The notes under the pieces were generated by a model, which did no database searches, was not told the DNA's origin, and saw only the letters and a list, made by a program, of their open reading frames with translations. Below are positions 2,760 through 52,970 of a stretch of DNA of 64,000 bases, one piece after another; position 1 is the first letter of the stretch; each line of letters opens with the position of its first letter. Source of the stretch: Siniperca chuatsi (taxonomy: Eukaryota > Chordata > Actinopteri > Centrarchiformes > Sinipercidae). The DNA lies in the NCBI RefSeq assembly GCF_020085105.1, contig NC_058045.1, forward strand, positions 19,174,333-19,238,332, in the 5' to 3' direction. A program made the translations under genes and the position numbers.

Positions 2760-4943
2760 CTACCATGTGACTGGTTGAACGGTCCTGTGTTCCACCAAAC
2801 TCTGGGACAAGTTTCTGAGTTCAGCTGCAGAGTGAGCCTGCTTATATCCCAGCAGAGCCAGAGTGTCATTGCACAGATTCTGCACAGTCCTCACGATGTC
2901 AAAGCCGAGACGAAGCCTCCAGCTCTCTGCTGTGGCTCTGGAGTCTCTGGTGGTGGAGTACCTGTAGTTCCACTCAGACGGAGACGACATGTTACTGTTG
3001 GTGTTCTTTGCAATCCACATCCGCACCCTGTCCTCCATCTCCAGCCCGACAAACCTGTAGATCTCAGAGGCCTTGTCCTTCGGGTTGAACGCCAGGTCCT
3101 CGTACCGCACCAGCAGGTAGCGTCCACGCAGCCATGCCGGTCTTTGCAGGCCTGTTTCTGCAGAGGCCACCATGTCCTTACAGGTGCTAGTGATCTGCGA
3201 CAGGTCGACATATCGAGGCTGCCGTCCTGTCGCATTCCATATTTTCCAAGCACGGAATTGATCTGAAAACGCCATCATGCGTGAGGCCAGTATGGCTCTG
3301 GGGTCTCTCACCAGGTGGATGATCTTTAGATCCAGACGTGGATCTTCTGTCAGGGTACGCAGGTCCCCCACCTCAGGGACCCGCACAGTCTTTATGGCTA
3401 TATGTCCCCTTGACAGACATGACATAGAGGCTAAGGTGAGGTTCAGGGCCCCACACTTCTTAGGACACCAGGTTTCATCAGGCGGATCGGAGGCCACTAC
3501 ATCCCCTCCTTCCAAGCACACAGGAGGGGAACAGAGGGCGTGGCTGGAGCTTCTGCGGAAGAAGGCATTTGTGACGTGGTCCTGGGGCTCCGGACGGATG
3601 TAATTCTCAATGAAGTGAAGGTCACAGGTGTACAGGTTGAGGAGGAGGTCCCTGTATGCTCCCAGTAAGGCCCGGCGGTCCAGGGTGCGACGTAGTCTGC
3701 TGCTGGAGTTGGTGAAGGCCTGCTGGACATGGTAAAGAGGTTCAAACACATAGAATATCCCTGGGTGCTGGTTGAGGAGCTGCCCGGTGAAGGAGGAGCC
3801 ACTGCGAGTCGTGGCAAACAGCAGGATGTGCTTCCGAGGTGACTCGTCGGGCATCCAACTGTCATCGCACAAGGCTCTCCACCTGGAATCTTGAAGAAAG
3901 AAACAACAAAGCCATATGCTTTACGTTTATATTATGTGATACTGACGTTAATTGCATCATGTTTTCTAACAATAGAATAAATAACAGTTTTAAATAACAC
4001 ATTACACAACCTGTTTTACCTGTTGCCTACTTTCAAGATCTGGTAAAAGATGAGTCATTACACTTATTTCAGAAGACTCCGTTTTGTTTCCGACATAACT
4101 TCAAGCCAGGAAAAAGGGAACTACTGAATCAAGCCAATAAAGCTTAAATAATTTAGAGGGTAAACATGCATGAGTAAGTTGCTTGTCTGCTGGTGGTTAC
4201 TGAGGGGGTTTATGAAATGGTGGATCTCTAAATATAGCGCAAATAGCTAACGTGTAATTACTGCTGATGAGGAGTTGATTGCAAAGGGGATATTACTTTT
4301 GTACACAGGAGCTCAGCGCTGGTAAGCTACAGCTGCGCTATGAGAGGAGATTAATGGAGATAAATTGGAGGATAACTGTAAAATGAATCACACATATTTA
4401 ATTTCTCTGTCCTCCCCACTTTTTGGGAATTCCCTCATTTAATGATGTGCTTTTCTATTTATTTTGCTTCAGTCACAACATGGTGCCACAGCTTGATTCT
4501 TGATGCTGTCTCTTTCTTTACTGAATCTCTTTGCATTAGGCTTTCCTCCAAACTGCTAAAATATAACTAATATTACCAATATTAACATTATCAATCAAGT
4601 GTTGAGTGTGTGTCTGTGTACGCCCTCTGCTGGTGCTGTAAAACCAAAGTCTGTAACAATCCACATACATTTCACATTATTTGTTACTTTTACAATAAAT
4701 ATGAGCATACATCTATATACAGCAACAGCTATACACACTTTATGCTCTCTTGTAGCAAGGCAGTACAGTATGTGGGACAATCTTGACTGGCTGTCGAGGC
4801 GTACCTCTGTGGTATCTGGTCTGGCAGTGGTAGGCTCCCTGACAGGGTCCAGACAGCGAGTCCCTCAGGGTGCGGATAGCCGTGTACTGGACCCCCAGAG
4901 ACGCACACACCAGCAGCAGCACCGTCTTCCAGGAGCACTCCAT
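2760..4943 (-). CDS. chst1-like: Carbohydrate 6-O-sulfotransferase, CHST1/CHST16 type (two coding exons)
   Basis: Coding exons are 4943-4805 and 3889-2760. The donor reads AGAG|GTACGC and the acceptor TTCTTCAAG|ATTCC, phase 1, giving 422 residues against 411 for human CHST1. The N-terminus is a type II membrane anchor (MECSWKTVLLL, residues 1-22) that closely matches the CHST1 start. The 5' PAPS-phosphosulfate loop is TTRSGSSF (73-80). KTVRVPEV follows at 213-220 and the 3' phosphate-binding region VRDPRAILASR at 240-250. The family are Golgi enzymes that move sulfate from PAPS to the 6-hydroxyl of galactose or N-acetylhexosamine in glycans such as keratan sulfate. The body of the protein is more diverged from CHST1 than the anchor is. 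Unlike human CHST1, whose coding region I know as one exon, an intron splits the anchor from the catalytic domain. The gene order (CRY1-type neighbours) favours CHST16, the ohnolog lost in amniotes; that is inference. Family membership is certain, the exact paralog is not. Confidence 0.92.
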
Positions 4944-4982
4944 CCTGCCCCCCCCTCTGGCTCTACATCCTTCACGCTGACG
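4944..4982 (-). other. 5' untranslated part of the sulfotransferase start exon
   Basis: The minus strand has a strong acceptor, a pyrimidine-rich tract ending TTGCAG, immediately before position 4982, 39 bases upstream of the ATG. This implies at least one upstream non-coding exon. The ATG context (GCAGGATGG) is favourable. Confidence 0.4.
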
Positions 4983-4989
4983 CTGCAAG

Positions 4990-7511
4990 GGAGGAACAGA
5001 GACACACCAGTGAGATTTCATTTTGATGCATTTTTTCAGCTTCATACATGTGCAGCTCCCACTCAGCCTGCAACCTGCTACTGATGGTCAATGAGCAGCT
5101 CTTGCTGGAGCAGTTAGGATTATTGCTCAAGGGTATTTAGACATCAGAGGGTAAAATATGTCCCATTAACTTTTCCCATCCAGATTTCCCCTGCCAGTTC
5201 AGAATGTGAACCTTTGTCCTACAATTTGAGTAGCAACAGCATTTTCTAGTGATGTAAAAAAGTAATTTGAGTGAATAAAGTATATACCTTTGGGCAGAGC
5301 CAGGCTTGCTTTTTTCTAGCAAGGTAGTAAATAAGATTATTTACCAAAATGTCAAACTATTCCTCAAAAACACATATGCAGTGTTTCTTAAAAAAATACA
5401 GATTCGAGAAAAGGTTGCTCTCTCTCTCCAAGCAGAGCAGACAGCACCTTTCAACATTTCTAACATAAGTAGCTTAAATTCTTTGAATAAACCATTTAAA
5501 AGTTTGGGATTTGTCTCCTAAAAGATCCACAGATTTGTTCTGCAGGAAAAAATGACTCAAAGGTCAGACCTTCGCTGGAAAATGGTAGCAGTAATGTCCC
5601 TATCTACAATAGCTCCACTATTCAGGATACCGTGCACACAGTTGCATAATTACATTTCATTTTTGCTTTCCTCTCTTCTGGGCAATTAAGTCTCTAAGCC
5701 CAGAAAAGAGCTACATACCCAGATAAATATAGCTGTCTTCACATAGAGGTGGATAAGTTTCCTTTGTACACTTCCAAGTACTTTGCCAATGGGCATGAAA
5801 GAGCAAAGGGAGATGTGATTTTCCAAATGGATTTTAGAAAAAAAGGTGCTGCCATTCATTTTTCCCTATGCACCAAACTGATGGTAGGTAATCACACGAG
5901 ATCCTGGGCGCAAACTGTGTCTCCATCACTCAAAAAGCGGCTGCGCAAAGGTAATCATCATCAAAACCACAGGTAAATATACATCATATTACTGACAAAA
6001 ATAAATATCGCCTTCCTGTTTGCTTCCTCACCCTCTTTCTGTCACTCTGTCTCTCTCCAGTCTGCCTCTTGTTCATTAATGATGTTTATGTGTCCCTGGC
6101 AGACTCATGTCCTCAGGAATGCATCACACTGAGCTGAGATTGGCTTTTGATGTTCCATTAATCACAAACAGTGCAAAACCAAAGACATTTACCCTGTTGG
6201 TGACGGGAAAAGAAATCGAGCTGACATGAGCCATTCTGTTTGAATATGGCTTAAAAACAGCATTCGCAGAATGAACTCATCAGGGAGAGAAACTTTGTTT
6301 CTCCGACTGGTAGTTGCAGACAGGATGACAGAAACAGGGACACTGTCTCTTGTTTCTGAACAACTTTAAAGCTGCTAGTTCTGTTTGTGCGTTTTTTAAA
6401 GGACACGAGAGATGGATGAAAAAGCTGAGAAATATAAGCACGAATGACTGCAGATAATAAGAAACTTTGACCAAGCTTCTTACCATCTCTGACACTTAAG
6501 AAAAAGAGAAAAAAAAATCTATCAATTTGACAGTCCTCCCATCCATACCCTACATGTACTGCACAGCTGGCTGACCAAGGCACATATGATTCCTCAGTGA
6601 CAGTTTTTTTTTTTCCTTTCCAGTCGTGATAAGGGCTCAGAGCTCCTCTGCTACACTCCCAGCCGCCCTCTGGAGAATGAAGACAGATGCTTCAATGGAT
6701 TAAAGCAATTTGATTTGTAAGTCCTCCTTTCTCTCTGGCTTATAACTCCTACCGCACCGGGACTCACACCAGGAATAAAAGACACTCTGTCAACAGCTGG
6801 AAGGGGACTGCAAGCTTCAGATGGTCTCAGGTTTTATATCCATCATACAATAACAGTGCTTACAGGGGATAAAAGCCTCTGGGACAGGATCAACCAAAGA
6901 TTACACTGTGCAGTGCATGGGCCTCTGGCAGATATGAGTTGAAATTCAATGAGCGCAGGCATTGCTGCTGCTGAGATAACATAGCTAGCAGCAAAAGTGT
7001 TGGAGATAATGACATTTGTGCATGGTGCAGGAAAGGCAATTGCCTCTGTGGAAAATAAAGGCAACAAATGAGGTTAGATGTTAGTGATGAAGGTGGGACT
7101 GAGGGATTTGGGATGCAAGTGATTGAGGGATGTGACAGTGCCAAAGATTTTTCTATTAAGGCACCTCAGTGTGCTCACAGATCCTCTGAGTGAGGCTGTT
7201 TATTGACAAAGCCTGATGATCAATCAATCTGGGGAAAAAACACAGAGAGAACTGAGCAACAGTAGCAACACCAGGAGGAGCTTCACGTCTCCAGTTAGTC
7301 TTTATCGCTCTGCTCTCCATCTATCTATCCATCTTTCCCCTTGCCTTTCTCTCTCTAAACCAACACCACACATACACACTCGCGCGCACAGAGTGCCACA
7401 GGCGGAGAGCAGAGCGCTGCAGCGCGCAGAGGAGCTGCATCGGACCCCGGGCTACAGAGGAGCTCCTGTGATACGAGAGAAGATGAATCTTGTACTACAT
7501 GACTCCTCCAG

Positions 7512-16165: not shown

Positions 16166-16653
16166 TTCAGTACTTTAATACTTTAATGTGCAGCACAGTA
16201 AAAGTGTCAGTGTCACAGCGAAATGACTTCCTGTTGTCTTTTGACACAGGACCTTCAGGTATTTTTTAGCCGTTATGCTCTGCCTTATTGGCACCAAGCA
16301 ATCTGTTGACAGGTGAGCAGCCTGACTGGTTTTTAATCATCATTTAATGTCACGTTACAACCATACCCCATTGTCGGGCCATCAGATAAGTTCAAAACAC
16401 GGTATAATTTTTTTTACACTGTCTTGGGTGAAAGAAAATTTTATCAGATTCTACTGTAAAAAAATCCAGTATTAGTCATTAGCACTTAAGAAGAAGAGGA
16501 GAGAAAGATGGCATGGACACGAAACTGAAAGTATAAATACGACCGTTTCATAATCACCAATCATTCTCTATCCAACTGAAAACAACTGGATATAAAGATG
16601 ATTTACGGACAGATTTCATAGCACAGTTAATTTAGATATATAATGCCTTGGAG

Positions 16654-18327
16654 CTACTTTACAAAAGCACCATATTCATCATTATGGGTTAACCTCTCAG
16701 TACAATCAGGATTCACATTCATTTTTATGTCCATGGTCGTGTTTAATCCAGACCAAGAGGCTTCTTTGCTCTGCCTTGGTGAGGCCTTTGTTCTCCTCTT
16801 TATTGCAATCACTGCTACAATCACTCCCAACACCAACAGCCCCACCAGTCCTGCCCCCACGGCATATGGAGTAACATTAGAGGCTGCTGACAGCTCAGCT
16901 GTATGGCTAAAGTTTCTGGTCTCTGGTTTAAAGGTCTCAGACACTAAATCATGTCTGCGTATTGTCTTCATTAAGTATAAAGAGATCTCCTGTTTAAAGA
17001 TGCACCTGTGTGTGTCATGCCAGTATTCATCACTGAATTCATCTTCCCCAGTAACCTTCTCAAAATAATCATCTATGAAATTATCATCCAGGAACTCAGG
17101 GCCTCCTAAAACAACACACCGGTACACCCCTTTATCTTCCATCTTCACGTGGGAGATCGCCAGCGAGGCGCCTTTGGCAGACAGAGTCAGTCTGCCATTC
17201 AAATCCTCTGGGATGGGAACAGACTCGTCGTTTGAGTCACAGATAAGTTCATATTCACCTGATGGCTTTAGGCGGTGCCACTGCACCCTTTGGGAATCAT
17301 TTTCTTCGCCAGTACCACAAACTAGCAAGACATTCTCGCCTTCAAAAACAGCTTTGTCTAGGGATTTCATTTTGGGGCAAAGAACCAGCAAGTACTGCAT
17401 TTCAAGCGAAGGGGAGATACATGAATAGTCCCCAATATGTTCATCAGAGACCACAGGAATTACCAATGAGAAGTCCTCTGATTTGTCACCAAATGATATG
17501 TACATGTGATTGTACGTCACGCTGCTAGCATTGATACTCCCCAGTGGTGTCTCCCATTGCTGGTTGTTACCATCAGAGGAGCAATTTAGTACCACTCTGT
17601 CCGCGAGTGAGGCAAAAATTTCCCTACTCTTACTGTGGTCTGGTAGGTACATATTTTGGAAACTGAGACAATTCTTATCTTTGATCACAAGACAGTAAAA
17701 GTGGTGGTTATTCTTTAACACGCTGTTGTCAAGCACGAGCAATGCTCCACTGTCTCTGACTTCCATGACGCCCTCCTCCAGCACAGGGTCCAGCGACACG
17801 CTGCTATCCAGGAAGAGTGTGAGCTTATAAGACGGATACTTTTCATGGTACCAGCGCACAGAGGTTCCCTCCAGACCAATGGAAGTGCTGTTGCACAGAA
17901 GCTCGGTCCCTACATCTTCTTCCTTCACAATGATCTCTTCAGATTCAACCTCCTCATCGCACACAGAGAGCTGCTGTGTGTGCTGGCTGACTAGTTTCTG
18001 GTTCTTCCAGCATTCCCTCCTATAAATCCCTGAGTCCATGTGTGTGAGGTGACTGATCAGCAGCCCTGGCAGGTGCTGATGTTTGCTGATGCGGATGCGG
18101 CCCTGGAGGTCTGCAGGAAGTGTAATGGGTGTGTTATTGTCTGAGGAGTTGCCAAGCAGCTGGTCTCCCTCTGGAGCACACCTATAAACAGCAATATAAT
18201 CCACTCCGAAACAATACCCCATCTCGATAGCGCTGCCCTCTGCTCTGAACACGGGCTCTGCCTCCTCACTGTAGACCTGGTGGACCAGGAAGAAAAGCAG
18301 AAACTCCAGAAACCTGATGGAGGTCAT
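16654..18327 (-). CDS. Intronless four-Ig-domain type I membrane protein, family unassigned
   Basis: One uninterrupted 557-codon frame. Residues 1-20 are a signal peptide. Four Ig-like domains follow. D1 is about 22-122 (Cys39/50/106/123, DSGIY at 98-102). D2 is about 128-230 (Cys145/Cys212, Trp159). D3 is about 232-316 (Cys249/Cys303, Trp258, DYSC). D4 is about 318-452 (Cys337/Cys404, Trp350, DKGVYRC). In D4 a strongly acidic insert (411-438, 12 of 28 residues D or E) carries Tyr421 and Tyr435. Several N-glycosylation sequons are present. The membrane segment is about 487-509, followed by KRR and a tail of about 48 residues ending DEYGAFVK; YGAF fits a YxxPhi sorting signal, and no ITIM is present. 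Family knowledge: teleosts have many Ig receptors, but these normally have one exon per domain. A single exon suggests a retrocopy or ancient intron loss. A cell-surface recognition or adhesion role is inferred; the ligand is unknown. Confidence 0.85.
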   Translation of the reverse strand: MTSIRFLEFLLFFLVHQVYSEEAEPVFRAEGSAIEMGYCFGVDYIAVYRCAPEGDQLLGNSSDNNTPITLPADLQGRIRISKHQHLPGLLISHLTHMDSGIYRRECWKNQKLVSQHTQQLSVCDEEVESEEIIVKEEDVGTELLCNSTSIGLEGTSVRWYHEKYPSYKLTLFLDSSVSLDPVLEEGVMEVRDSGALLVLDNSVLKNNHHFYCLVIKDKNCLSFQNMYLPDHSKSREIFASLADRVVLNCSSDGNNQQWETPLGSINASSVTYNHMYISFGDKSEDFSLVIPVVSDEHIGDYSCISPSLEMQYLLVLCPKMKSLDKAVFEGENVLLVCGTGEENDSQRVQWHRLKPSGEYELICDSNDESVPIPEDLNGRLTLSAKGASLAISHVKMEDKGVYRCVVLGGPEFLDDNFIDDYFEKVTGEDEFSDEYWHDTHRCIFKQEISLYLMKTIRRHDLVSETFKPETRNFSHTAELSAASNVTPYAVGAGLVGLLVLGVIVAVIAIKRRTKASPRQSKEASWSGLNTTMDIKMNVNPDCTERLTHNDEYGAFVK

Positions 18328-21300
18328 GTTGTCCGTCTATCTGTCACAATCTGGTCTGTACTTTCAGTAAGCCTATTTTAATGTATCCACTTTTGGTTTG
18401 TCACTTCAGTTACGCCTCCAGCTAATAAAAGTTTCCTCCTCTTCCACATTCTTCCGTTGGCTTGCACAAATACACTCAGCCTCAGAGTGACAGGCGTAGC
18501 AACACACACATACGCAAACACATCCATACTGGCATGCAGGCACACAGACACGTTAAGTTACTTAATGAGTGACAGGAGTGGGTGGAGAGGCATTGAAGTA
18601 ATTTATGTATTTGTGATAAGTCTGAGACAACTAATAAGGCTAAACAAAAGCCAAGAGACAGAACATAAAAATAAAAAGTTAAGCTCCAGGTTGTGCATTA
18701 ACTGTGCAGCTGGACAGGTTTTCACTCAGCTGTGGGCGTGGTGATTCACCATGCAAGGTCGGGTGACAGCAGTTAGAGGGAGTGTTTATGTGTTTGCAAA
18801 TGCACGCAACAATGCTCTTATTCGTTGAGCAAACTAATCTGAACTAAATCGAGACGTATCAGGTAATCTGTCTCTGTTGCCTGGCAGTTACCGCTTCTTT
18901 TGCAATGTGAGGAAACTAAAGATTCACTGTGTCTTTCATACTGTGCAAGAGTTGAGTAATATTATGTGCAGCATAAAAGCTATAAAATCAAAATGTGTCC
19001 TGTTGTTTCATAATACCATCAAGTCAAACAATATTTAGGAATAGATACATTTGTGCTCATCGCTGCTTCTACTACTGGCCTCATAATGTTGCACTTTGCA
19101 TCATAACAAATGTGTTTCATGTTGTTCATATTTTGTTAAGCTTTTATATTATAACTCTTGTCATTGTTAATGTGTAATCTGGTTTTTAATGACACAACAT
19201 AATGGGAGATCATCTGCCCAATCTGTTAATATGTCACCACAAATGAAAAGTTTGAAGACTTTGATCTGCCATAAAAACAACAGGACCCAGCTGTTATGTT
19301 ACTTGTCATATTACTTGACTTCTTCACTCTACGAAGCTGTAACAGCTCTTAAGCTCCGGCTCCGGCTAATAAATAGCACAAACTAACTGTACTACTCTAA
19401 AAATCAATACTTCTCTCATTGGTGTTTCATTCAAGGTCAAATGCCTGCTTCTTAATTGCACATCAAGAAAATCACAATAGGAAAAACACAAGGTTAAACC
19501 TGTGATATACAATGTAAAGCAGAATTTGCAGCAAGGATGATGATTGTTGTTGAAATGTGAAACAATGACAGGTTTGTTAGTCTGCTTATCAAGAACTCCA
19601 GTGTCCTCATGCTCTTGATAAAGCAGGCTCTCTATCTCTCTGTTTTGGTTTCTCTGGTTGCTAATGCCTGGGGCTTGCTCTATTATTTGGTGACAAAGGA
19701 CAAGCACAACGCCTGGGAAAACCCCGTACTTTAGGCCCCTGTGCAGGAAGAGGGTCAGGTGGTGGCTTTGGTATTATGTAGGGAAATTACGCCGTTTGCT
19801 TTACGAGATCTCTGGCCAGGTTTTAAAAGGTCAGTGAAATTGATGGACTGTGGGAAAAAACCCCAGGGCTCCTACCTGAAGGAGAGATTTTGAGAGTGAG
19901 ACAATGGAGTCGCTTAGCATAGCCAGTGTCTGGAAGACGCCGCCACCATCCTTGTGTAGTAAGTGGACAAGAGAAACTGGAAAGTTCTCTGGACCTTTGT
20001 GATGAGGCATGTTTTACTTCTAAACTCCACAAAGCAGCACCCAGTGTGTGAGCATCTGCAAGAGGTCTGACAGCCTGTGCCACATTTTGCTTGTGTTGCC
20101 CAGTGGCAGTTTGGAAAAGCTTCTCCTTTCCTCTTCCAGTTTGTTGCCTTTGTGCCAACATCTCGTCTGAAGGTTTCTATTTTGTCTCTTGTTGATGCTA
20201 TTGTTCTTTGTGTTTTGGTGACTGTCATGTAACCGTGTTACAGTTGCTACTTTCATTTTTGTGCAACCCCCACAGTGTTCCGGTAATAAAACCAACAAAT
20301 TTACGATAATAATGGGCCGATTTTAATCTATGTTTCAAGTCTAAGCAAGTTATACATTTATCAGAGGGGCTTGACAAAAACTCATAGTCTCTCTGTATTC
20401 AGTATGGACATAATGGATCACAAACACAGCATGGAGCTTGGATTGGATGATTCTTCATACTGACTGTCTCAACTAAGCATTTTTTTTTTTTTACAGCTCT
20501 TGGTTCTGTCTGTCTGCCCACTTTGCTCTGCCAGTGACTTTCGCAGTGATTTGTCTTGCATTTAGTCCTTTCGATTTTTTAAAAATTCCTGCTTATGTTT
20601 TTAGTTCCTCATTCCTGCAGAAACCACAGGAGCAATGTAGCAAGAGAGGGTAGATAATGATGGCGTGACTTTGCTCAAACCCTTGATAAAAGCCATGGAA
20701 ATTGTTGCTGACTGCCAATAAGAGAACAGTGAATGACACTGTTTACTCTGCAGGCCCACATGTTATTCCACACCCCTGCGTCCACTATAAAGAAAGCTGT
20801 CTCCCATGAAACACATGCAAAATCTAATCTATGTCTCCCTTTTCTGTGTTTGTGCTTGGACATGATCTGTCTGAGATACAAACTCTTAATAACAAGATTA
20901 TCAGTAGGCTACACTCTGATGACCAGCTCACTCCTGTCAACTTAGTGGGTATTAAAAAAGAAAGAGGCACCAACCTGTTTTCCTTTGAGGCACATCATAT
21001 GTTTACTAGTACATAAACTATAATGAACCCGGCGACCCACTCAGCAGCAGCAGCAGCTTCTGCGCTGCTGAGGGAACAGCTTGCAGAGCTGGTGATCAAG
21101 CATCATGATTAAGCACCAACTGCGAGAAAACTCTCCGTGTGTTCAGTCCAATTCAGCCCAGTGCTGATTACACTCATCAGGGCCCCGTATGCTGCAGGGT
21201 TTGGAGACGCACCAACTGCTATTTGAGATACAGATTTTTGCCAAAAATATTTAATTACTGGACATATGGGCTGCAATAAAAAGCAGAGCTTTGAAAGGAG

Positions 21301-23177
21301 GAAATAGGGGCAATGGGAGCAGAAAATCAAATAACGCTCACATCGCTAAATCGACTTTTCTACATTCTGCATGAAATTTTTTATTTTTTTTTTTAAATTA
21401 AAGCTATTTCAGGTCACATTTAAATGTATAAGGTCTTAGTTGTTCTGTACCCGTCACCGCCTCTGTGTGACGCTGTAGCACACAAGACAACACAGATAAC
21501 AGCAGAAGAAGAAACCAGTTTCATAACAGAACGTCACATCCTTTGACCGAAGCTAAAGGTAACTCAATTTCTAACAAAACTGTCGATATACTAGCTAGAC
21601 TCTCCACATATCTACACACCTCTGTCAATTGTAACTGGTAGTAATCATGTTAAATCACGCGGTCAAATGACATGATGTCCCGCGATGTAGCGGTACTGCT
21701 CTTGTCTCTTCTAGCAGTTAACTAACTAGCAAGCTAAATACCTCCCATGTTTCTTCAAATAAAATACTGGAGTTAATTCAAGGAGACTTTTATTTTGAAA
21801 TTGTTGACTAAATGTATTTAGTTATCCTCGCAACCTCTGGAAGGATGTTAAGATGGATTTACTCTGCTCAGCGTGACAAGTGCCTAAGTTACACTAAGGC
21901 ACTTAATTATGCTTTTGAATGTGTTATCTGATTCTTATTGGCAATTGGTCATTGACTGTGACCGATGTTTCGGTTCGCTCGTGCTTTCCCACTCTCCCCT
22001 ATGGAACATCTGGAACCAGCTGCACAGAATAACCGTTATCTTCTATCAAATAATGTGTGTTGTGTAGGCAAGGCTGTGATGAGGGACATTACCCATAACA
22101 GCATTAAAAAAAACATCTGGGTACTCCCTGTGTCAAAGCAGGGAGATTAAATTACAAAGTGCTTTTAAGAGATTTAATCGGTACCTAAAGAGTATGTCAG
22201 TTTAAAAATAATACAGGTTGGAGTCCTAAGGTTTTCTGGTGGAAAATGAAAAATGAAGAGACATTTCTGTGAGTATTCTGCCAATACTTTTTTAAAAGTG
22301 AAATTTCATATAAGTAGCACTACTGTGTTTGTTTGTTAAGATGTACTTTTCGTCAATGTGTTTTCTGTGAGAAAGGCCTCTTTGTTTCATCTCCACAATG
22401 TACAGGTCTGTGCATTCCTCATGGATGTGTTTCTGTCTTAGAGTGGGGTTTAAAAAAAACACAAACATATCTTAATTGAATTGTTTGTAGTGGCATGGAC
22501 GGGAAAACCCACTTAAATGGAGTGGAGATGACACATGAGGCGGCAGGTATGACTTTATATGACAGTCAAGTCAATTTTATTTATATAGCCCAATATCACA
22601 AATTTGCCTCAGGGGACTTTAGAATCTGTACAGCATACAACACCCCTATCCTTAGACCCTCAATTAAGATAAGGACACCCCCCCCCCCAAAAAAAACCCT
22701 GGAAAAGAAACACTGGCTGGTAATGTGCATAGGAGGGCACAGAGGGAGACAATAGGAAACTCCCAGAAAGCTCAAGTTCAAGTGAAACTTGAGCCACTGT
22801 GTTTTCACTTGAACCATTAACAGGAAGCTCCAGAAATATCCCCTGGCTGTGCGTAAAGTCAGGATATTGCTGTACAGCATGATATTTATGTGAATAGTGG
22901 AACAAACAATATGAAGAGAGTCGCGATTGTCAGTCTCCTGTTCTGACGGAAGCACATGACTGGCCATGCTAGGCCTCTGGCCTTACAGAACATCACTACA
23001 GCTACAATTGTTTGATTAACGTGTTACTGTGCATCACTTCAACTCTCTGCTCAAGCTGTGATTGTCTAGCTCCCTCTGCTACTTCAGAAGGTGAAGCTAG
23101 TATTTTTAGTAAGTAGTTATGTTAGCTGCCTGCTTGGTTGTCACCCACTGCAGTTCCTTCTTCTCTCTCTCCCCTAG
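18328..23177. other. Intergenic DNA between the Ig gene and mterf2
   Basis: No coding exon is recognisable. The first 150 bases upstream of the Ig gene presumably hold its promoter; no TATA box is clear. About 21,470-21,558 looks like a possible non-coding first exon of mterf2, ending in a donor CTAAAG|GTAACT, with a matching acceptor at 23,177. A dispersed-repeat block duplicated at 27.5 kb occupies 22,359-22,828. The rest is AT-rich, with a GCA run near 21,040. Confidence 0.5.
22359..22828. repeat. Local duplicate block A (partner at 27,455-28,206)
   Basis: Almost the same sequence recurs 5.1 kb away. It includes 'ctccacaatgtacaggtctg', 'ggaaaacccacttaaatgg', the teleost-typical 'ttttatttatatagcccaat' block, a C-run followed by an A-run, and a terminal hairpin formed by 'ttcaagtgaaa' and 'ttttcacttgaa'. 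Relative to its partner this copy lacks about 130 bases near 22,485 and about 130 bases near 22,727. Confidence 0.8.
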
Positions 23178-23203
23178 GTGTTCAGCCTCAGGACTTTTCA
23201 TCA

Positions 23204-24330
23204 ATGTTGCGCTTGTTCAAAACGTCCCTGTGCCTCCGGTGCAAACGTGTCACAGCTCTACCATTAAACCTAAGGCCATGTGCAACACTGAACTCAGCAG
23301 AGAACCAGCAGACCGTGGAGGCTCTCTACGATCTCTCTGTGGACATCCAGAAGGTCCGGAAACTTAACGGCTGGGTCCTGCATCAGAGCCCAGCCTATAC
23401 TAAGGAGGTAGCTGACCTGCTGCAAGACATGGGAGCCTCGGGCTCCATCATTGCCCGGATCCTAGCGGTTCACCCTGAGGCAGTCCTCTGTCACCCAGAG
23501 CAGATGCAGGCTCAGAAGGAGCTGTGGATGTCTGTGTGCCCAAACCAGAAAGAGCTGGTTGGTATCATTGAGAAATTCCCAGCCTCCTTCTTCACCTCCT
23601 CCAGCCACCATGACAACCAGCGGAACAACATCGCTTTCTACCAGAGCTTAAACCTCAACAAGCGAATCATCACCAAGCTCATGGCGAGCGCTCCCCAGAG
23701 CTTCAGCCGGCCAGTAGAGCAGAACGAGGTGATGGTGCGCACCCTCCAGCAGGCCTACCAGGAGCTTGGGGGGGAGGAGGCCAACATGAAGATCTGGCTT
23801 CAGAAGCTGCTGAGCCAGAACCCGTTTGTTCTCCTCAAGCCTCCCGAGGTGCTGAGGCAGAACCTGCTGTTCCTGAGAGACAAGGGCTTCAGCACGGCAG
23901 AGCTCCTCCGCCTCCTCTCCAAACTCAGGGGCTTTGTCACAGAGCTGAACCCGAAAGCATGCGCTGCACCCTGGCGTACTCCCAGGACACCATGGGCTGC
24001 TCCGAGGCAGAGCTGCGGAACATCATCCTCAACTGCCCAGCTCTGCTTTACTACCCTGAAGCAATTCTGGCTGAGCGCTTTAAGGGCCTCCTCAGTGCTG
24101 GGATCAGCATGTCTCAAATCAGAGAGACTCCAACCGTTTTGGAGCTGACCACGCAGATAGTGAATCATCGCATCGAGCTACTGAGGGCTCATCTTTATGA
24201 CGTACGGACAGGTAGTCTGGAGGTCCTAAATGGCACTAAGAAGGACTTTGAGATGAGCTATGGAAAACTACAGCTACGGCGAGAGAGACCACTTTTTAAC
24301 CCTGTCGCCCCTTTAAAAGCAGATGACTGA
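23204..24330 (+). CDS. mterf2: mterf2, mitochondrial transcription termination factor 2, with one apparent frameshift
   Basis: The ATG at 23,204 lies 26 bases inside an exon that begins after a strong acceptor (CTCTCCCCTAG, ending at 23,177). The frame starts MLRLFKTSL, a mitochondrial targeting-like N-terminus. Repeated mTERF helices follow, with strong matches to vertebrate MTERF2 such as VDIQKVRKLNGWVL, EANMKIWLQKLLSQNP and the C-terminal RPLFNPVAPLK. The family binds mitochondrial nucleic acid and supports mitochondrial transcription and respiration. Near 23,950-23,952 the frame breaks: the sequence has AACCCG where AACCCCG would restore frame, so reading passes from frame 2 (to about 23,950) into frame 1 (from about 23,951). 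With that one base the product would be 375 residues (human 385). Both halves are otherwise fully conserved and free of other stops. An assembly or sequencing indel in the C-run therefore seems likelier than an old pseudogene, though a recent loss-of-function allele is possible. Confidence 0.9.
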
Positions 24331-31196: not shown

Positions 31197-32911
31197 CGAG
31201 AGAACACTCACTTCAGTGTTGTACTCAGCACCACATGCAGAACATTGGCCAGTGGGAAAATGGTTTCTGGGTGGGAGTACCAGCACAGTTTTCCCCAGAC
31301 CACCATGTTCATCTTTCCTGAAATAGATACAATCAAATATCTGACACTATACTCCACATGTCAGCTGTTCCCAGCTCTCACGTCTCTTCTTATGTCACAT
31401 AGCACAGGACTGGGTTTTAAAACCATAAAAGTTTGGAGTACTAAATGACTTGTCCCCATAACAAAGCGAGAAAACTGTCAAGTAGATGTGGGTGATATGG
31501 TTGGTGCTCAAATGCAGGCAAAGTGGATGGACAAATCTCAAACTTTGTATGTGAAGATGGAAACTATATTATCATTACTATCTCTATCTGCTGTTTACAT
31601 TCCACCAGACGCAAATTCAAAAAATGCACTGCAGAATTATTTCCTGGGTGTTTACAGGGGGTACAAACTGTATAACTATAAACCCATCTCTACTGTCAAG
31701 TTGGCCAAAAATGCCTTTGTCATATTTACTCATTCTTTAATCAGCTATTTCCTGATTTAATAATATTCTGCACAGTTGTTGTAAATATTTAGCAATGTAA
31801 GGATTTAAAGTACCAACATACAGATGTAGGTTTGGCTCCAGCATTTAAAAGTTTTGACTGATACCCAGCCCTATATGAAGTGGCTATAACATGATGTAAT
31901 ATTGATGTTGAGGAATACCTGGTCTTGACACCCTCGTGACAGTGTTCAGAAAGTACTGGAATTCAGATCTGTAAGAGTCACATTTTCAATATTAAATGAA
32001 GCAGAACACAGCCAGCTGTTATTAATTTCTTAAGTATGGCTGCTTATAGTTTCCACATGGTGCAAAGAATGTATATAGTTATATAACACATCAAAATACA
32101 TAGTCTCTTCTTCTTCATCATCTTCTTCTTCTATTTTACCCCATGAGGCACCACTTTTATAACTGCTGCTCTTACTACTGTCTACTACTAGCAGTTCCTC
32201 CACTGCTGCTGCCTGCTCTTCTGCACCACTACTCTCCCCACTACAGTACAAGTGCTGCTGCTTCCACTGTTACAACTTAATATCACTGGTAACTTCAGCA
32301 TTTACTGCTAGTCCCTTTGCAACCCTTTGCTGCTGTTACTGCTACTATAACTGCTACTTTTTGATTAATCAATTACATAATCATCTAAAAACGAATCTGA
32401 TGACTTTATTGTCATTTGTCAGTTAGAAATACCTCTGTTTTCCTCTATGTCTCTGTACCATCATTGTATGTGTACTTTGTTTTGTCTGTTTTTGGCTTTT
32501 GATCCAACAAAGTAAGCATTTTATCATACATCACTTCGGGCTCTTCTGGTATACATTTATTAATCCATATTGGACTGTCATTTCATAGGTTATATAAACT
32601 TTTCCTCATAACTTTACATAGAGCTTTGTAGAGGATGGGATACAACGAACTATAGCTATACAGTTTTTATAAAGCGACGCTATTGATATACATGTATAAT
32701 ATCAAAACAATTGCATTGTTATGTACCATATGGAAAATAAAGTTTGCGTGTCCAAACTGAATCAAGCATTTTAAAGACCTCGTCACAAATGGTTTCACTC
32801 TTACGGTAAATGCCAGGGCAGTTTTCCATCTTTCCCGATGCCCATGTCATTGCAAGCCGCTGCAATGAGGCGAACAGGTTTGTTCTGCACTTTGTCCCGA
32901 TTGGTTTCCAT
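29527..32911 (-). CDS. Dihydrofolate reductase family protein, diverged (six exons)
   Basis: Exons are 32911-32805, 31968-31919, 31317-31212, 31055-30929, 30410-30295 and 29617-29527. All have GT-AG borders and join in frame to 198 residues (human DHFR 187). Family signatures: MGIGKDGKLPW (23-33), catalytic-type acid Glu38 with Phe39, VGG (123-125), Thr144 matching human Thr136, and a C-terminal QEEN-IKYK block. DHFR reduces dihydrofolate with NADPH in one-carbon metabolism. Several ligand-contact positions differ from human DHFR as I align it. GKKTW is GKLCW (62-65 plus G61), so Lys55 and Thr56 become Leu and Cys. The Arg70 that holds the folate glutamate is Val78, and Arg77 is Thr85. A second, diverged DHFR paralog with altered substrate use or function is therefore more likely than the housekeeping enzyme. 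The frame is intact and the splice sites are good, so it is probably expressed. Its 5' end lies about 0.7 kb from the presumed 3' end of the cryptochrome. Confidence 0.9.
31157..31202. repeat. TG/AG microsatellite beside a DHFR-like splice donor
   Basis: About 13 TG units followed by AG repeats, in the third intron of the DHFR-like gene. The AG part comes within about 8 bases of the donor at 31,211. Confidence 0.9.
32100..32360. repeat. Trinucleotide-rich low-complexity tract (CTT, CTG, CTA)
   Basis: Irregular runs of CTT, CTG and CTA triplets in the first intron of the DHFR-like gene. They create a spurious acidic/serine-rich open frame on the minus strand. Confidence 0.7.
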
Positions 32912-33029
32912 CTCCAACAGCAGGTCAAATTAAACAAGCAAGCAGCCAGGAAGCACAGGCTTAGTTTCTGCAACAGTCACTGAGTCTGTGTGTGCGTGGA
33001 GACAATTTATTCAGGTTTGAGCTCAACTA

Positions 33030-33720: not shown

Positions 33721-35493
33721 GCCATTTCAATACAGTTAGAATTTGGTCATTCTTTATACAAAAATAACAGACTTACAGTCACATGGGAAACAAAAGCACA
33801 TGCATTCACAGTATAACTTTTGAGTTTTGGTAAGAAATTCTTTACAAAAGGAGTTGTGAAATCCCATAACCAAATATACAAAAGTGGGAAATCAAAATCA
33901 ATAAATATGTACAAATATTTATTTCTTTTAAGGCCTCCCTTTTGCCAAAAATTAACAGTATTGCGTCTAATATCCTTTACTACTGTACATCACACCTTTG
34001 TGTATTCAATCTTTGAAAAAAATGTTCTCACATGTACATTCGTGACAGTGCGACTTCATATTCTTGATATGTAGGGGCTTGTTTTTGAGAAAAGACAACT
34101 ATGTTTTATCTCTTCGGCATTTTACTGCATGTCCCTGTTTTATCCAGGTCATCTTATGTTAGCGTGCTAACAGTGAATGAGGGTGTCAGCTGTACATAAT
34201 CAGGTGACTGTGTGGAAGATGTGTTGTGTTATAGGTTCCCATCACTCAGATGGGAATCAGATTTCAGATTTTGACATTTTCACATTAAGGTGTAGAGGCC
34301 AAAGCGCTCTAATAAAATATTTAAGCTTTAAGCAAAATGTTCAGTTCACCGTCGACGAGAGCTGATGCTTAGATAAACATCCAGCTGACTGAATAACTGA
34401 TGTAAAGATGGAGTTTTGCCTCCTGATGACACAATTTCACCCTGATGATGTGGTGTTGAGGGGAAACAAGGGCAATAATGATTAGTGGTTTCATCACTTG
34501 TTTAGTTACGCGCTGTAGTGGAAGACAACAAGTGGCCCCACAACACCCTGATATGAAGATCAGTTGTTTTTTGCCTTTTATATACACTGGTGTTCTTTGT
34601 CTTCAATATTAGTATTTTCTCTCTATTCCTTCCTCTGTTCCTGAGATGTGCGATGTGTCTTATTTGGAGACTAAGACATGTTAACAGAATCCAACTTCTG
34701 ACAATCTGATTACAAATATCATGTAGTATTGAGAGTCCTTTAGACAAACTGATAATAGTATCAGCTGGATCCAAGCGCCCCATTCTGTCTCTTAGTTGCA
34801 GTTACAGTGTGATAACTGAGGCCACTGCAGGGGTAGATGCTATCCAGAACGGCCAAGGGACCATTTGTAATTCTGCTTTTTTACACTATTTGTTCTTCCT
34901 CCAGGCTTTAGAGCTGCATTCAAGTGGAGCCTCTTCACAGCGCCGCTTCTGCGTGGACTGTCCTCTTTCTGCATTAAAACATGCCACAGAACAACCGTCA
35001 GGAAATTATTTCAAATTTATTTGGAATCCACTAACATTTTTGTTTTGTGAATTGTATATACAAACATAACTATAACAGTATAACACAAACATAAATACAG
35101 TGAAGTGAATATATCTAAGAAGCTATTCTTCCTTTTGTACTTCCTTTTGCACTGTGCCAACTTGGCTCAGGGCATTTTATGGTTTTTCAGTATTTCTGGC
35201 TTGTTTTGGCAGAACAACAGTAGTTTAGTTATGCTCTGTAATACAGTCCAATATTCAGTTACCAGTTCTCAAAGACCAACAGCAATCCTGCAGGCGAGAG
35301 ACAGCAAATATTTGATATCACGCTGCCAACTGACCCAGGACTCATGGGTATTAATTTTAGCCATGAGTGTGACTTTGAGTAAATAAAATATTAGAATATT
35401 GTCTGCATTGTGCAATCTAAAATGTATGCATGTATTAATGTGCAAAGAGCTGTATTTTAACCAAAGACAATGTTAACCACCCAACCTGCATAC

Positions 35494-38400
35494 CTGTTTG
35501 AGGCATTCCTTCGTGTATGGAGCGGTTTTCAGAGGAGCCTCCTGGACCTTGACTAGTCCCTGTGTTGACACCTCCGACATTACTGCCATTTCCACCATTG
35601 CTGGGATTTGCAGGTACTGTTGCCAACAGGCCTGCAAGGGGACCAAAGCATTTTAATTTACCAACTCAATCAATAAGTGCCTTGATAAAGCTGGCACTGA
35701 AACACACAAAAAACAGCTGACTGGTGATAATTTTGTATGGTAATTAATAGATATCCAAATCACTGCATGAATAATATTTGCAGAGAAGAAAATGTGAAAA
35801 TTGGTAGCCAGTTGTTTTGTGCTTGTATAGTTGCTAACGTAGTTTAATACAACAGCAGAGGTATTGCGGGGATGCCATCTGTCAACAGCCCCTTATCAAT
35901 CACACACACTAAAACAGTAGCATTTATCTAGCTGTGGTGTGTTCTGATGCACTATTGAGTAATGCGCATTACTTAGGCAAAGCAATTGCTCTGAAGCAAA
36001 CAGCAGGTTAGCTTTTAGATCTACTGCCCATCATGGTGTATGGGGTTGGATCTCATAACAGGTTTCATAGGGAATCCTGGATTGCAGGAATGACTGAAGA
36101 ACTTGACTATAAAACAGAAAAAGGCCTTTTTCTTTGAAATGTTTTCATCTGTAGAAATACAGGTAACATTTCCAGATATTTAAAAATACATTACAATGAT
36201 GGCATAAAAGTGTGAGTTTGATGTAATCTGTAACTGGGTCATGTCCCTACCCAGTCCTCTGTAGCAGGAAAGCTGCTGGTAAATTTGCTTCATCCTCTCT
36301 ATGTTGAAGCGGCTGGCCTCAGCATGGTTCACCATGGGGTTGGGGTAGTGGACTCCTATGATACACTTGGCTGTCTTCTGCACTTCCTCTGGGGCATTCC
36401 AAGGATCATAGATGTATTTGGCTGGAAAGCCCCTCAGTATGGGCAAATAACGCCTGGGAACAGCATTACCACCATTAATTCTGTGTACTGAGTGTGAAAG
36501 CTCATTCTCTGTTTTCCATTAATATTAACACTGTAAATTAGGTCACACAATTTTCATTGCTGTTTACCAGTTACTACACATGATTGTTACACATTTCACA
36601 TTTAGGACTCTCTGTGATGTTATGCAGATAAACTACACTATAACAAATACTCCTAAAATGATATGAAGTTTTAAACAATTTGTTGATATTTTTGGAATCC
36701 TGATGCAACCATGACAAATCATGTCCCCCATGTGAGGCTACAAAAGAGCACAAGCTAACCATGAGATTTTATTCTATTTCGTACGTGCTTCGCCCTCTAA
36801 CGGTCTTCACTATTGGTTCCTATTTGAAATGACTGCAGGGGGTACAGATACCCACAACACTGTCAGCTTATGAAAGGCCAGTGTTTTTATATTCATGTGA
36901 TGCAGATGAAAGTACTGACTGACCGTATGTAGTCCCCGTTGGGATCTGTGCGTCGTCCAAATCCCACGGGGCAGTAGCAGTGGAAAAACTGCTGGAAAAA
37001 CGAGCTGCAAGAAAGCCATATCCAGCTGCCAGCATTTACACTCCAGTCCACATCTATGAGCAACTCTTCAAACGCCTGTACAAGACACGGACAGTGGACA
37101 GTTAAGACAAAGCAAAGTAGTCATTTGAATGAGAGCAAGAAGCATCGGCTAGGTAACTTCATTTATTCTAACTTTTCTTTTAATGACCTTTCAAACTGTG
37201 GTAATTGATGAAAAGTGTGAACCTTATTTACTTAAATACTTGATCCCCTTTTCTCTATTCTTACCTTCATGCCTTCCTCCCAGCTGATCCAGAGGTCTCC
37301 CCTGGTGAGGAAGCAGGCCACAGCGTGCCTCGCCAAATGATGGATCCACCCCTCCTGCCTCAGCTGGGTCATAATTGCATCTATCCAGGGAAAGCCTGTC
37401 CGTCCCTCTGCCCACTTGGCCAGTGCCTCTGGGTTTCGGTCCCAGGGAATCTGGACACACACAGGGTTTCCCTCCATCTTGTCAAAGCAGGGGTTGTTGC
37501 TGGCAGTCGCATAGAAGAACTCCCTCCACAACAGCTGCCCATACAAGGAAAGTGGTGGGGTGTTGTTCTTCTTGACCTGACAAAACAGAGCGCACCATGG
37601 CAACAGAAGTTTATCATCTGCAGGATAGACTGGTTTGACTCCTTGACCATCACACAAATAAAATGGCTGGAAGAAAGATGGTAGTTATCATGACTTAACA
37701 AGATTTAAATGCCCATATTACAGTGTCAACATAAAACTAATCTGAGTAAAAACAAAACGTAAAATGGCTTATTCCACATATAAATTGTTCGTATTGTTTC
37801 ATGTCTTGTCTGTGGTCATTCGTACCTTCCTATACAGATCAGTAAGTTTGAAGTAGAAGAGCCGACAGGAGAGACATCCAAAGCGCAGGTAGGGGCTGAG
37901 GCCTGTGGGACTGGCCAGCAGGGAGTTGGCGTTCATACGTGGACGCTCAAAGTTTGCCACCCATGCCTGTAAAAAGATGGTCAGTCAGCATTTAACTAAA
38001 TAATACCACTGTGATTGCTGAGAGAAAAATCTGCAACTGAATAAATGACAGACAAATCAAATGAGATATGTTTGAGTCTCAGGCCTCAGAAACAAAGATG
38101 CAGTTACACTTTATTTGGATAGTCCGCTAACAGATAGTTTATGGAGTATTTGTAACATTTCAACAGCTTATTAGTTGAAATTCAACAATTCAACTGTTTC
38201 ACAAATAAAACTGTTTTCTAGGTTTGGTTAGGTTTAGGCACGAAAAACATCTTTGTTAGGTTATGTTAGTGAATTGTCACATATACTCTATTGATAATCT
38301 GTTAAACATCTACAGACAAAGCGAAACAGTTGAAATGTTACTCTGTAGGCGGACTATCCAAATAAAGTGGTACCAAAGATGCTGTTGATGCTGATATAGC

Positions 38401-41400
38401 ATACAACTGGTGGAGTTTATCACTTGAAGCAAGATGTCACAGCTGAGATGTCTAAATCTTCGATTCAGTTCTAGCAATCTTTTAATGTGTTGATCATGGT
38501 TTATTGGTTTTCTGTTCCTTTGCTGAGAAACTACATCAAGTCATCCAAAATGTTTTCTGATGACACATCATTGTTCATTTTGTAGTGGCCATAATGAAAA
38601 TCTTGGTCGGTATACAGCTTTCACCAACATATCAGGTATTTATAACACAGATCTAAATCTCTTTTCTAATCACTACACATTTAACAGACTCTCCATTCTG
38701 GCAACAGGCGCTGTGTCAGTGAGAAAACTTCAAGGATGTGGGAAAACATTAGTTCTCTGCTGCCTCTTGCATTTTTTATTTTTTTAAATGGAGATAAGCA
38801 AACATGTCAAAGAATATTTATTTTCAAAATCTATTAGAAAATAGACTGCGTACCAAATCAATCTTTGTGCACATTAAAAAAAGGCACATGACACATTATG
38901 GCAAAGCCTCAGTACAAAGAAGAAACCATTGAAAAGGAAAAAAAATCATGACCCGATTTTCCAGCAAAAGCAAATGGACAGAGAAAGACAACCACGCTTT
39001 CAATGAACTTGTGTGAAAGATGTGTTACACTGATCATCATCATCATCATGCTTTACCTGCGTCTATCTGTCTCGGATTAGTCTTCATATTTATGTTATGA
39101 CTTGAGCTAGCTGAGTGGTCAGTCAGCTAAAGCCAAAGTTAATGGTTACTATATTCATTTCTTATTTTGTGCATATACTGTGTAGTAATACCGTCTTTTT
39201 ACCTTTCTCTCCAGATGCCGCTCTAGCCTCATGAGGGCTTCTGTTTCTCCACCTGGCCACACTGCTGTAGTCAGGCCCTCCGTCTCAAAACCTGAAAAAG
39301 CAAAATATACACAAGTATAGGCGATTTGTTCATTTTTAAACTGGATGGATCACACACACCCCCCCCCGGTGCCTATTTTTTGCCCCTTTAACTGATTTTT
39401 AGGGGCATTTACTAAACTCTGAAATAATGTATAATTATTACGTTATACTGTCAACTAAACACTCAATTTGTTTTATTTGAAAAAATAACAAATGAGAACA
39501 GCAAAAAAACAAAAACAAAAAAACCCGTTATGAGCATTCAAAGGCACTTTTGCTTCAAACTGTGTTAATTTCTGACCCAGCCTCTGTCATGCTGCTACCG
39601 CACTCTCTTTCCCCGTCTGCTGTAGAGAATATCGATCAATTGTTGAGAATTATTCAATTTTTATTTTAACTGGCTCAGCTTTTCTAGCCTTTACAGCGCT
39701 GGTTTAGTTGCCTGCGAGTCGAGTCAGTGAGTGAAGTACACACACACACACACACGGAGAGTAGAGACGAGATGAGTGGGAGAAATTATTTCACATGGCG
39801 TGCTCTAAAAAGAGAAAAGCAGACAGCGTAACTCTTACATGTGCAATTTCAGAAATACTTTATTGATCCCTGAGGGCTCCCCGAGGGGAAACTCTTTTCC
39901 CACAGGCAATTCAAAACCAGTATGTGTCAAATGTTCAGAGACCGTGGCGATTATTAAAAGCGGCAATGTGAAGCTCCACTACAAGACAAAGCACAGAGCA
40001 TCTTTTGAGCAGGTTAATGAGGGGGATGGATTTTGGTAATTTTGCTAACAACGGTGATGGCATCCTCCCTCATATCGCCTACTGAGTATAGATTAAAAAA
40101 TTGTTCGAAGTCTGTGACTTTGATACTGAGAAATAAGCTGGATAGTATTTGTGTATATACACCACGACCAGTGTATTTATGCACACAATATACAGACACT
40201 TACAAATAAAAAACAAAAAACTTACCAAGCTCTTCCAGGGAGGGCACCCCAAACTTGTCATCATGGTCATCACTGATGGGTGTGGCACATTTTTTGATAA
40301 CCTTAGACATGATCGTCTCTGCAGGGAGCTCCACAGCATCCATACGGTTGAGGAGGGCCTGGAAGCGCTTGTACGTAAGAGGAGGCTGACCATCATTGAG
40401 TTCTATGATCCTGTAGGAAAGAAAAATGTAAAAGGGAAATGTAAAGGGAATCAACACAAATCTTCACACACACAAACACAATATGTGACAATACACATTG
40501 TTTCAAACAGGTTAATTACTATGGGACATTTGTTTCAACTAATCAGTCACTCACTTGTCCAGATTGTAGAGGGTGTGTGAAATCCGCACCATGACCTCTA
40601 CCCCAGCCTCGCTGGCTAGTTTTTGGATGGCAGCATCACGTTCCTTACCAAACGGCTCAGAGTCATATTCATAAGATAGACGGGTGATCTGCCATTCCTG
40701 AGGAACAAAGTAATTTATTGTTCAGTTGTATAAAGGAATCCATGATGAACTGATAGTGACAGAGACCACAATGTTTATGGTAAATCTTATTTTTTATTCA
40801 AGTATCATTACAACAACTTGGTTCTGAGTGATTAACCTCAAACTTGGGTTCAGGACCTGGCTTAGTGGCAGAGCGGGTCGTCTACCAATCGGAAAGTCGA
40901 TCCCGGCTTTCCCCAGCCCACATGGGCAAGACAATGAACCCCAAATTGCTCCCAAAGGCTGTATCTTAGGTGTGTGAGTGTGTGAATGATTAGTTACTTT
41001 CTTTGGATAGTGCCTGCCATCAGTGTGTGAATGGGGTGAATGTGATATGTAGTGTGAAGCGCTTTGAGTAATTGGATGACTAGAAAGGCGCTATACAAGT
41101 ACAGTCCATTTACCATCCTATGTAATCGATTTGGAGGGCCACTGCATGAGTTCACTGCAGTATCAAAATCTTACATTGTTTTTCAGCCACTGTTTAATGA
41201 GCTATAACCTTATGTTAAAATGAGTTACAGTGCTAGTTTATTTGAGAACAAAGCTAAGATAAAATGGCATCTTCTACTCTATTCCATCTCTCATACCTTA
41301 AAAAGACGAGGGAAGACATTTGTAGGCTGGCCTCTGATTACAAACAGACGGGAGTTGAGTTTGCGCAGGCTGGCGTCCAAGTCCTCTAAACAATGCAACA

Positions 41401-45495: not shown

Positions 45496-46089
45496 GTCAC
45501 CTGCCTTCTTTATTTAGCACTGGTGGGGTTAGAAGAGGGGGTGTCCAATATACAACAAAAAGACGCGCTCTTATGTTGTCATCCGAGGACGACGTAGTTT
45601 TTAACCCGGTCAGTAAGACAGCGTTAAAGGTTTGTTTGATCTCAACCTTGTTCCATGAATTTATCCACAGAGTTGAGTCTCCTGACCAGCGGTGGCTGCA
45701 TGTGTGGACAGCAGGTAACCACACAGCAGACGCAGGAAAACGGGCACAACTCTCCTCTGGATTAGTACCAACGATGAAGTGAGCACATTTGAGAGAATAA
45801 GTTCCGAAGAAGCCCGTTTTCAGCCAGCAGCGATAGTTAAACTCTAAATAGTTTTATTTTCGTAAGCTATCACGCGAACACAAGCTACTATGCTAGCTCG
45901 CAAAAAGCACAAACGCGTAAATATTTCCGGGTTGTTTCCACATGTTAATCTACACTAAATTAACACACTAGACCTCGCCGACATGTTAAACACTGTGTAT
46001 AAATTGTAACGCCTAGTAAACTCGAGCACCAAGACATCCTTTCTTTATCAACAAATCCACCCACAGGAAAGCGCTGAAGGAATGGAACG

Positions 46090-51046: not shown

Positions 51047-51920
<874 letters not shown>

Positions 51921-52970
51921 TGAATACTGTAAGTCCATGCAACAGGGTCTTTCTCCACTTCATATCCTTTCCACACATCCACACATTTTATATTCCTATG
52001 TGTAATTTGTCACTTGTAGAGTACCCCTCACAACCCACAGTAGATTTTTAGGCTACATCAGTAGGCTATAACAAAGTAAAGGCTTCTTCATTGGATTTAC
52101 TTCAAACGACCATATAAACATAAAAGGTGGTACTGATCCAACCAAGTCTCACCTTGCACCTGCTCCATAAATGACACAATTATCAGCACTGCATTTATGA
52201 GGATTTATATAAAGAGGTCCCTCAGATTCACTTGCTGCCAGATCTCTGATATGAAAAGGTTACACCACAATCTCTCAATCTCTCTCTTGTTGAGGAACTG
52301 TGAACTTGAACTCAAAGACATCAGTGAATGAGCATTTCTGCAGCTGAAACAGTTCTTCCTTTTCTCAGAGTGCAAGGCAGCTGCAGAAGCTGCAGGCAGG
52401 TGATGACTGACTGAGACCAGGATGGGAGAGAGTGGTCCTCTTAAGGCCAGCTTGCCTCCTCTGTCTTATACTGTATGCTATACTGTGTGTGGCTGTTTTG
52501 TTAATGCACAAAATGATGAAGCAGGGCTTGATACCCCCAGGCTTTATGCCTCACTTTGAGAGCTTTCAGTGAAAGGGCCTCTTCCTGTTGGTTTCCTACA
52601 ATGATGCCCTGCAGAGATGAGTTTTATTCTTTTCACCCAAAGAGGAAGGAGGTCTTCATTCCTGTGTACATTTGCTGATTCTGGTACACACAATACATCC
52701 CCGGTAGTTTTCACATCGGCCTTCCAAATTTTGAGAAACCGTTTTTGGTGTGTGCTTTGAAAGTAACTGTAATTGTATTCAGACTTCACTGACGCTTAAG
52801 CAGCAATACATCACAAACCACTCTAGCACATGTTTGCCCCTGTTTTGATGGATGTTGTAAAAGTGCTGCTGAGGCTCCTCTTGCAACAGGTTTACGTAAT
52901 GAAAGGCCTTGGGGGACCTATGTGCTATCATGCATTATGCAGAGTGATGTGAATAAAACTGAGTTATAGA

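Follow-up and report, generated by a model that had tools for sequence, protein, structure and literature searches.

The window (the whole stretch of 64,000 nucleotides from Siniperca chuatsi that was analyzed) harbors on its minus strand a single-exon coding sequence (CDS; 16654..18327) for a type I membrane protein of 557 residues, as delineated by ORF reading and comparison with shuffled sequences. The CDS starts with an ATG at position 18327, continues uninterrupted for 557 codons and ends with a TAG stop codon at 16656-16654. The stop-free stretch comprises 16657-18336, with three codons separating the ATG from an in-frame stop upstream. Because of this stop, the frame cannot extend any further in the 5' direction at the genomic level. 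The predicted signal peptide is encoded in the same exon as the remaining protein. By "one exon" we mean one open frame in the genomic sequence, with reference to the coding part.

The 557-codon frame is not due to chance. While the CDS is intact, none of 1000 dinucleotide shuffles of it was free of stops (mean 29.9, minimum 14), and the longest stop-free run in mononucleotide shuffles reached 213 codons for the whole window (n = 100) and 216 codons for the CDS (n = 1000). The remaining two frames of the minus strand contain 32 and 49 stops across the CDS. In addition, the third-position GC content of the CDS is 0.534, compared to a GC content of 0.409 for the window, and a codon-position bias in GC was seen in the first five of six 100-codon blocks, while it was missing from the last, shorter block. 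A pattern scan revealed two ATTAAA hexamers about 310-320 nucleotides past the stop codon (16332..16348, minus strand) as candidate poly(A) signals; further ATTAAA and AATAAA hexamers lie downstream of these two, which may represent chance occurrences.

Pfam supports a sulfotransferase, presumably CHST1-like, at 2763-5087 (minus strand) and an mTERF gene at 23126-24145 (plus strand), and the gene resides between the two. Beyond these neighbors lie what we take to be a DHFR exon (32804-32929, minus strand), CRY1-like exons (35476-45513, minus strand) and the first exon of a BTBD11-like gene (51060-51923, plus strand). Pfam returned no family for the BTBD11-like exon or for the presumed first CHST1 exon, and neither Rfam at gathering scores nor a tRNA scan of the window yielded a match.

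Predicted domain architecture

When the entire 557-residue protein was compared to Pfam, the V-set family (PF07686) matched in two stretches with an E-value of 9.1e-17 and 61.7 bits (cut-off 26). When used alone, the fourth Ig-like domain, D4 (residues ~319-462; 16942..17373, minus strand, as all features of the protein), reaches 42.9 bits with V-set and thus lies above the cut-off. The first domain, D1 (residues ~23-123; 17959..18261), reaches 17.1 bits by itself (below the cut-off of 26) and is a putative V-type domain that also resembles D4. Indeed, the local alignment score of D1 and D4 was 85 (shuffle mean 25.4), with 0 of 500 shuffles as good. The second domain, D2 (residues ~124-232; 17632..17958), gave no Ig match when compared to Pfam by itself; it contains Cys145, Trp159 and Cys212, together with Cys220, and its similarity to D4 (score 54, shuffle mean 28.3) was likewise not attained by any of 500 shuffles. 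The other four domain pairs were unremarkable, since 66 to 319 of their 500 shuffles scored equally well or better. The third domain, D3 (residues ~233-318, Cys 249/303/317; 17374..17631), matched Ig_3 with 20.8 bits and an E-value of 5.6e-4 when used alone (cut-off 30) and could be aligned with a relative on contig C7 (see below). Four Ig-like domains are therefore likely, D4 being the only one that is certain by profile.

Both D1 (Cys 39/50/106/123) and D4 (Cys 337/363/404/442) carry extra cysteines. In D4, 37 residues separate Cys404 and Cys442, and this part of the domain is acidic, with 14 D/E and 6 K/R among residues 407-460.

The putative signal peptide (residues ~1-22; 18262..18327) was recognized by eye as a hydrophobic N-terminus, coincides with a helix over residues 3-19 in a poor structural model and has been given a tentative cleavage site. 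The transmembrane segment (residues ~486-509; 16801..16872) is followed by the sequence KRR; hydropathy windows for it begin at residues 484-495, the poor model contains a helix at residues 488-513, and no charged residue occurs within 486-509. Support for the signal peptide and for a single membrane helix thus comes from prediction by hydropathy and from helices in the poor model. The remaining 48 residues (510-557; 16657..16800) would form a cytoplasmic tail with one Y-x-x-hydrophobic motif (YGAF at residue 552). A pattern search located seven N-glycosylation sequons, of which one lies in the tail. The motif scan detected no ITIM in the tail, the single match to the ITIM pattern being located at residue 42 in the ectodomain. 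Hence, neither of two marks of paired immune receptors, a tail ITIM or a charged residue in the membrane helix, was found, which argues against the classical paired-receptor routes.

AlphaFold2 models computed from the single sequence had a mean pLDDT of 36.6 for the whole protein and of 36.7 for D2 alone, and were therefore too poor for a fold search. In a PDB search with the whole protein, the 60 of 933 matches listed were generic V domains, including those of antibodies and of PD-1; the best-matching stretch among these covers residues 326-424, i.e. part of D4. With D1 alone or D2-D3 alone, the best E-value in the PDB was not under 0.05. Neither Pfam nor the PDB thus provides a specific family name, and both return generic Ig domains only, in agreement with the preliminary description, which could not assign the protein to a named family. 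That description had also claimed an intact, intronless frame of 557 codons, and its coordinates proved exact. Of the architecture it had put forward, the signal peptide and the membrane segment (both as predictions), the tail and the presence of Ig domains hold, whereas a count of four Ig domains has to be toned down to likely, with D4 alone passing the Pfam cut-off.

Ig-encoding exons elsewhere in the genome

Vertebrate Ig receptors are usually built from one-domain exons, an arrangement that allows domain shuffling and alternative splicing. The protein encoded in the window resembles V-set type I receptors (PF07686) in combining a V-set domain above the curated cut-off with a predicted signal peptide, a membrane helix and a tail; it differs from them in that all these parts are encoded in one coding exon. 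Elsewhere in this genome, open frames around V-set matches comprised up to 258 residues, compared to 560 at the present locus (150 matches scored among 1542 candidates). The 150 scored matches do not include the gene itself and, with three exceptions (on contigs C32, C9 and C8), lie on contigs C13, C15, C17, C21 and C22; they are an unfair sample of Ig-superfamily (IgSF) receptors, since they derive mostly from V-gene clusters. One such cluster (C22:6449523-6562037) contains ten listed V-set matches, nine of which have open frames of 244-258 residues. These frames are about twice as long as one V domain, which might mean that each gene has two domains, or else long exons.

Among Ig_3 matches (150 scored of 2338 candidates), many frames were short, yet long ones occurred as well, the longest spanning 2861 residues on contig C12, which we take to be titin-like. 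Two or three Ig_3 matches shared one frame on contigs C7 (527 residues), C13 (373), C24 (533) and C12 (358). The frame on C7 (C7:19974591-19975925) is a multi-Ig exon with two Ig_3 matches and another weak Ig-like match. On C13 (C13:12246992-12248008), three neighboring Ig_3 matches share a frame length of 373 residues, which places three Ig domains in a single exon. Having a V-set receptor encoded by one exon is thus unusual in this genome, whereas exons with several Ig domains are not unusual in themselves. The initial expectation of one domain per exon fits the scored V-set matches, dominated as these are by V-gene clusters, but other Ig classes include multi-Ig exons.

A broken relative and the search for a parent

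In a search of the genome with the whole protein, only two places attained an E-value ≤0.001, the gene itself and C7:28096988-28097773. New here is that this relative on contig C7, as judged by alignment, is about 25-27% identical and, although broken, keeps the order from D1 to the membrane segment with no introns in between. The protein query matched it over residues 61-339 (E 3.5e-12, 27% identity) with three stops. When tblastn was run on 200 kb around it, residues 69-337 were matched (24.6% identity) in a single frame that runs on for 765 bp with no intron-sized gap, followed 95 bp further on by a second match to residues 378-406 in a different frame. A gapped alignment with the window gene revealed the same order of domains, common cysteines and the shared motifs ECW and YLLV-x-CPK. 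The D4 piece of the relative, in the second frame, scored 27.4 bits with V-set (cut-off 26), and a third frame contained a hydrophobic segment and then RTRRG. The matches thus leave no space for introns between mid-D1 and the membrane segment; the signal peptide and early D1 were not recognized, and the intronless layout holds from mid-D1 on.

The strong part of the relative contains 3 stops in 255 codons, while dinucleotide shuffles contained 13.3 on average, with 0 of 2000 having three or fewer; a wider alignment passes through two additional upstream stops. The other frames of the strong part contain 15, 17, 13, 6 and 16 stops, the one with 6 being located on the opposite strand. As 3 stops contrast with 13.3 expected by shuffling, the C7 locus probably remained coding during most of the divergence and broke later. 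The low identity implies that the copies separated long ago. We infer from comparing the two sequences that two intronless genes of this kind were functional in an ancestor, hinting at a small, old intronless gene family in the fish genome. The segment from YWC to NQC of the relative is far shorter than the acidic D4 stretch of the window gene, so that the acidic loop would represent either a gain in the window copy or a loss in the C7 copy.

By ORF reading, the relative lies among what we presume to be AQP11-, CLNS1A-, RSF1- and PAK1-like genes. We considered whether the two loci are ohnologues and found no support for this idea, as queries with CHST1-, MTERF-, CRY-, DHFR- and BTBD11-like sequences gave only weak matches in the surrounding 200 kb (best E 0.31). 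About 60 kb from the relative (C7:28032001-28038782), long frames resemble, by eye, the reverse transcriptase of a non-LTR retrotransposon.

The genome (719 Mb, 65 contigs) was searched exon by exon with seven protein queries, i.e. the whole protein, D1, D4, D2-D3 and three pieces of the C7 relative. None of them revealed an intron-bearing gene of the family, the best match outside the two loci having an E-value of 0.018. Of the six piecewise queries, D1 recovered the other copy, whereas the remaining five missed it. A diverged parent or more relatives may thus have been missed. Weak matches in the genome were read as open reading frames by way of a motif filter, and on visual inspection those shown resemble common V-set exons with one domain, except for L017 (C10:15252086-15252331). 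The latter is a 247-residue open frame that weakly resembles the V-set domain D4 (E 0.257), with unfamiliar cysteine-rich sequence upstream. No Ig-like frame of interest was seen at L006, L009 or L011, nor in an unrelated frame of L007.

As expected for a retrogene, the coding sequence is intronless, i.e. one 557-codon open frame. The flanks of the gene contain neither a poly(A) tract nor a convincing target-site duplication; their longest shared exact repeat is one 12-mer, and the single long A/T run consists of 8 T. Retroposition or intron loss, as originally envisaged for this gene, is nevertheless plausible because the C7 locus has the same layout from mid-D1 to the membrane segment; no parent was found, at limited sensitivity, and the flanks lack the above marks.

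Origin and possible role

Taking these observations together, we consider it fairly probable that the locus is a functional host gene, encoding an intronless type I receptor or adhesion protein of the IgSF that is old, has a decayed paralogue and goes back to a retroposed ancestor. The whole coding sequence would constitute one exon for a signal peptide, four Ig-like domains with V-type domains at both ends, a membrane helix and a short tail. The intronless form appears to be old, given a paralogue on another contig with the same layout. The introns of the ancestor were most likely lost when a spliced mRNA for a multi-Ig protein was retroposed; the parent gene would by now be gone or unrecognizable.

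Alternatively, introns may have been lost in place or the gene may always have been intronless, in which case the family would have had a single exon from the outset, and duplication or translocation of DNA would have given rise to the C7 locus. In favor of this scenario, introns are missing from both known copies wherever they can be compared, the window gene bears no retrocopy hallmarks and the genome queries found no parent. However, reverse transcription of a spliced mRNA is the simplest route to losing all introns together, and the hallmarks of retrocopies are expected to decay with age, so that their absence says little. We regard this alternative as rather unlikely, though well ahead of the following two.

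A host gene might also have become intronless by passage through a large DNA virus that captured and later returned it. Endogenous herpesvirus-like elements of fishes carry host-like surface proteins. Such traffic is possible, as PMC5601938 describes a CD276 antigen-like gene in Teratorn of medaka. Against a viral detour, two scans of viral contigs contained no relative: these scans and one of prokaryote genome contigs gave 1, 14 and 17 pattern-matching stretches, none of them confirmed by tblastn, the short exact peptide patterns reaching mainly close relatives. Moreover, none of ten chosen ORFs at 4.7-20.2 kb of the window matched a Pfam family above cut-off, and the neighbors of both loci read as host genes (two by Pfam, the others by eye), which together render this route very improbable. 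A young, still-open but non-functional retrocopy or a chance frame is equally improbable, since the searched genome contains no close parent and an old, unselected stretch of equal length would be expected to have accumulated about 30 stops.

As to the role of the protein, it would most likely serve as a ligand-binding or adhesion receptor. Its outer V-type domain might contact either a soluble ligand or a partner exposed by another cell. The single tyrosine motif of the tail might mediate internalization or recruitment, in place of signaling through an ITIM or a charged-helix adaptor. LITR, SITR, NITR and DICP are teleost innate Ig receptor families, consisting of type I or soluble Ig-domain proteins in fishes. 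Compared to these families, the present gene was found as a single locus with one broken relative instead of a cluster, and its product differs by the missing tail ITIM and the uncharged helix. AMIGO, LINGO and LRFN are LRR-Ig proteins with a single coding exon, in which an Ig domain and a membrane segment are likewise encoded together; they contain leucine-rich repeats, whereas the Pfam scan detected no LRR family in the window protein.

In a survey of the European sea bass (PMC8207432), 312 of 1,585 single-exon genes are reported to have paralogues with several exons. The window gene is likewise an intronless coding gene, but searches of limited sensitivity found no intron-bearing paralogue of it. 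Among the titles and opening lines of abstracts listed from open-licence literature, none describes this gene or an intronless multi-Ig fish receptor, which is weak evidence of novelty.

More tentatively, and as a possibility that we rate somewhat short of probable, the two loci may represent an undescribed, old family of intronless four-Ig surface receptors in fishes. It would comprise at least two ancestral loci, one beside MTERF/CRY1-like and one beside AQP11/PAK1-like genes, with one copy intact and under selection and the acidic D4 loop missing from the other. The gene may well be annotated already as uncharacterized in public genomes, and it would be ordinary if it were merely one among many uncharacterized annotated IgSF genes. 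If our reading is true, an entire receptor would be fixed in one exon, providing a clear-cut example of how a receptor that was retroposed or stripped of its introns has turned into a lasting surface gene. Fish biology would also gain a candidate receptor that is as yet unstudied.
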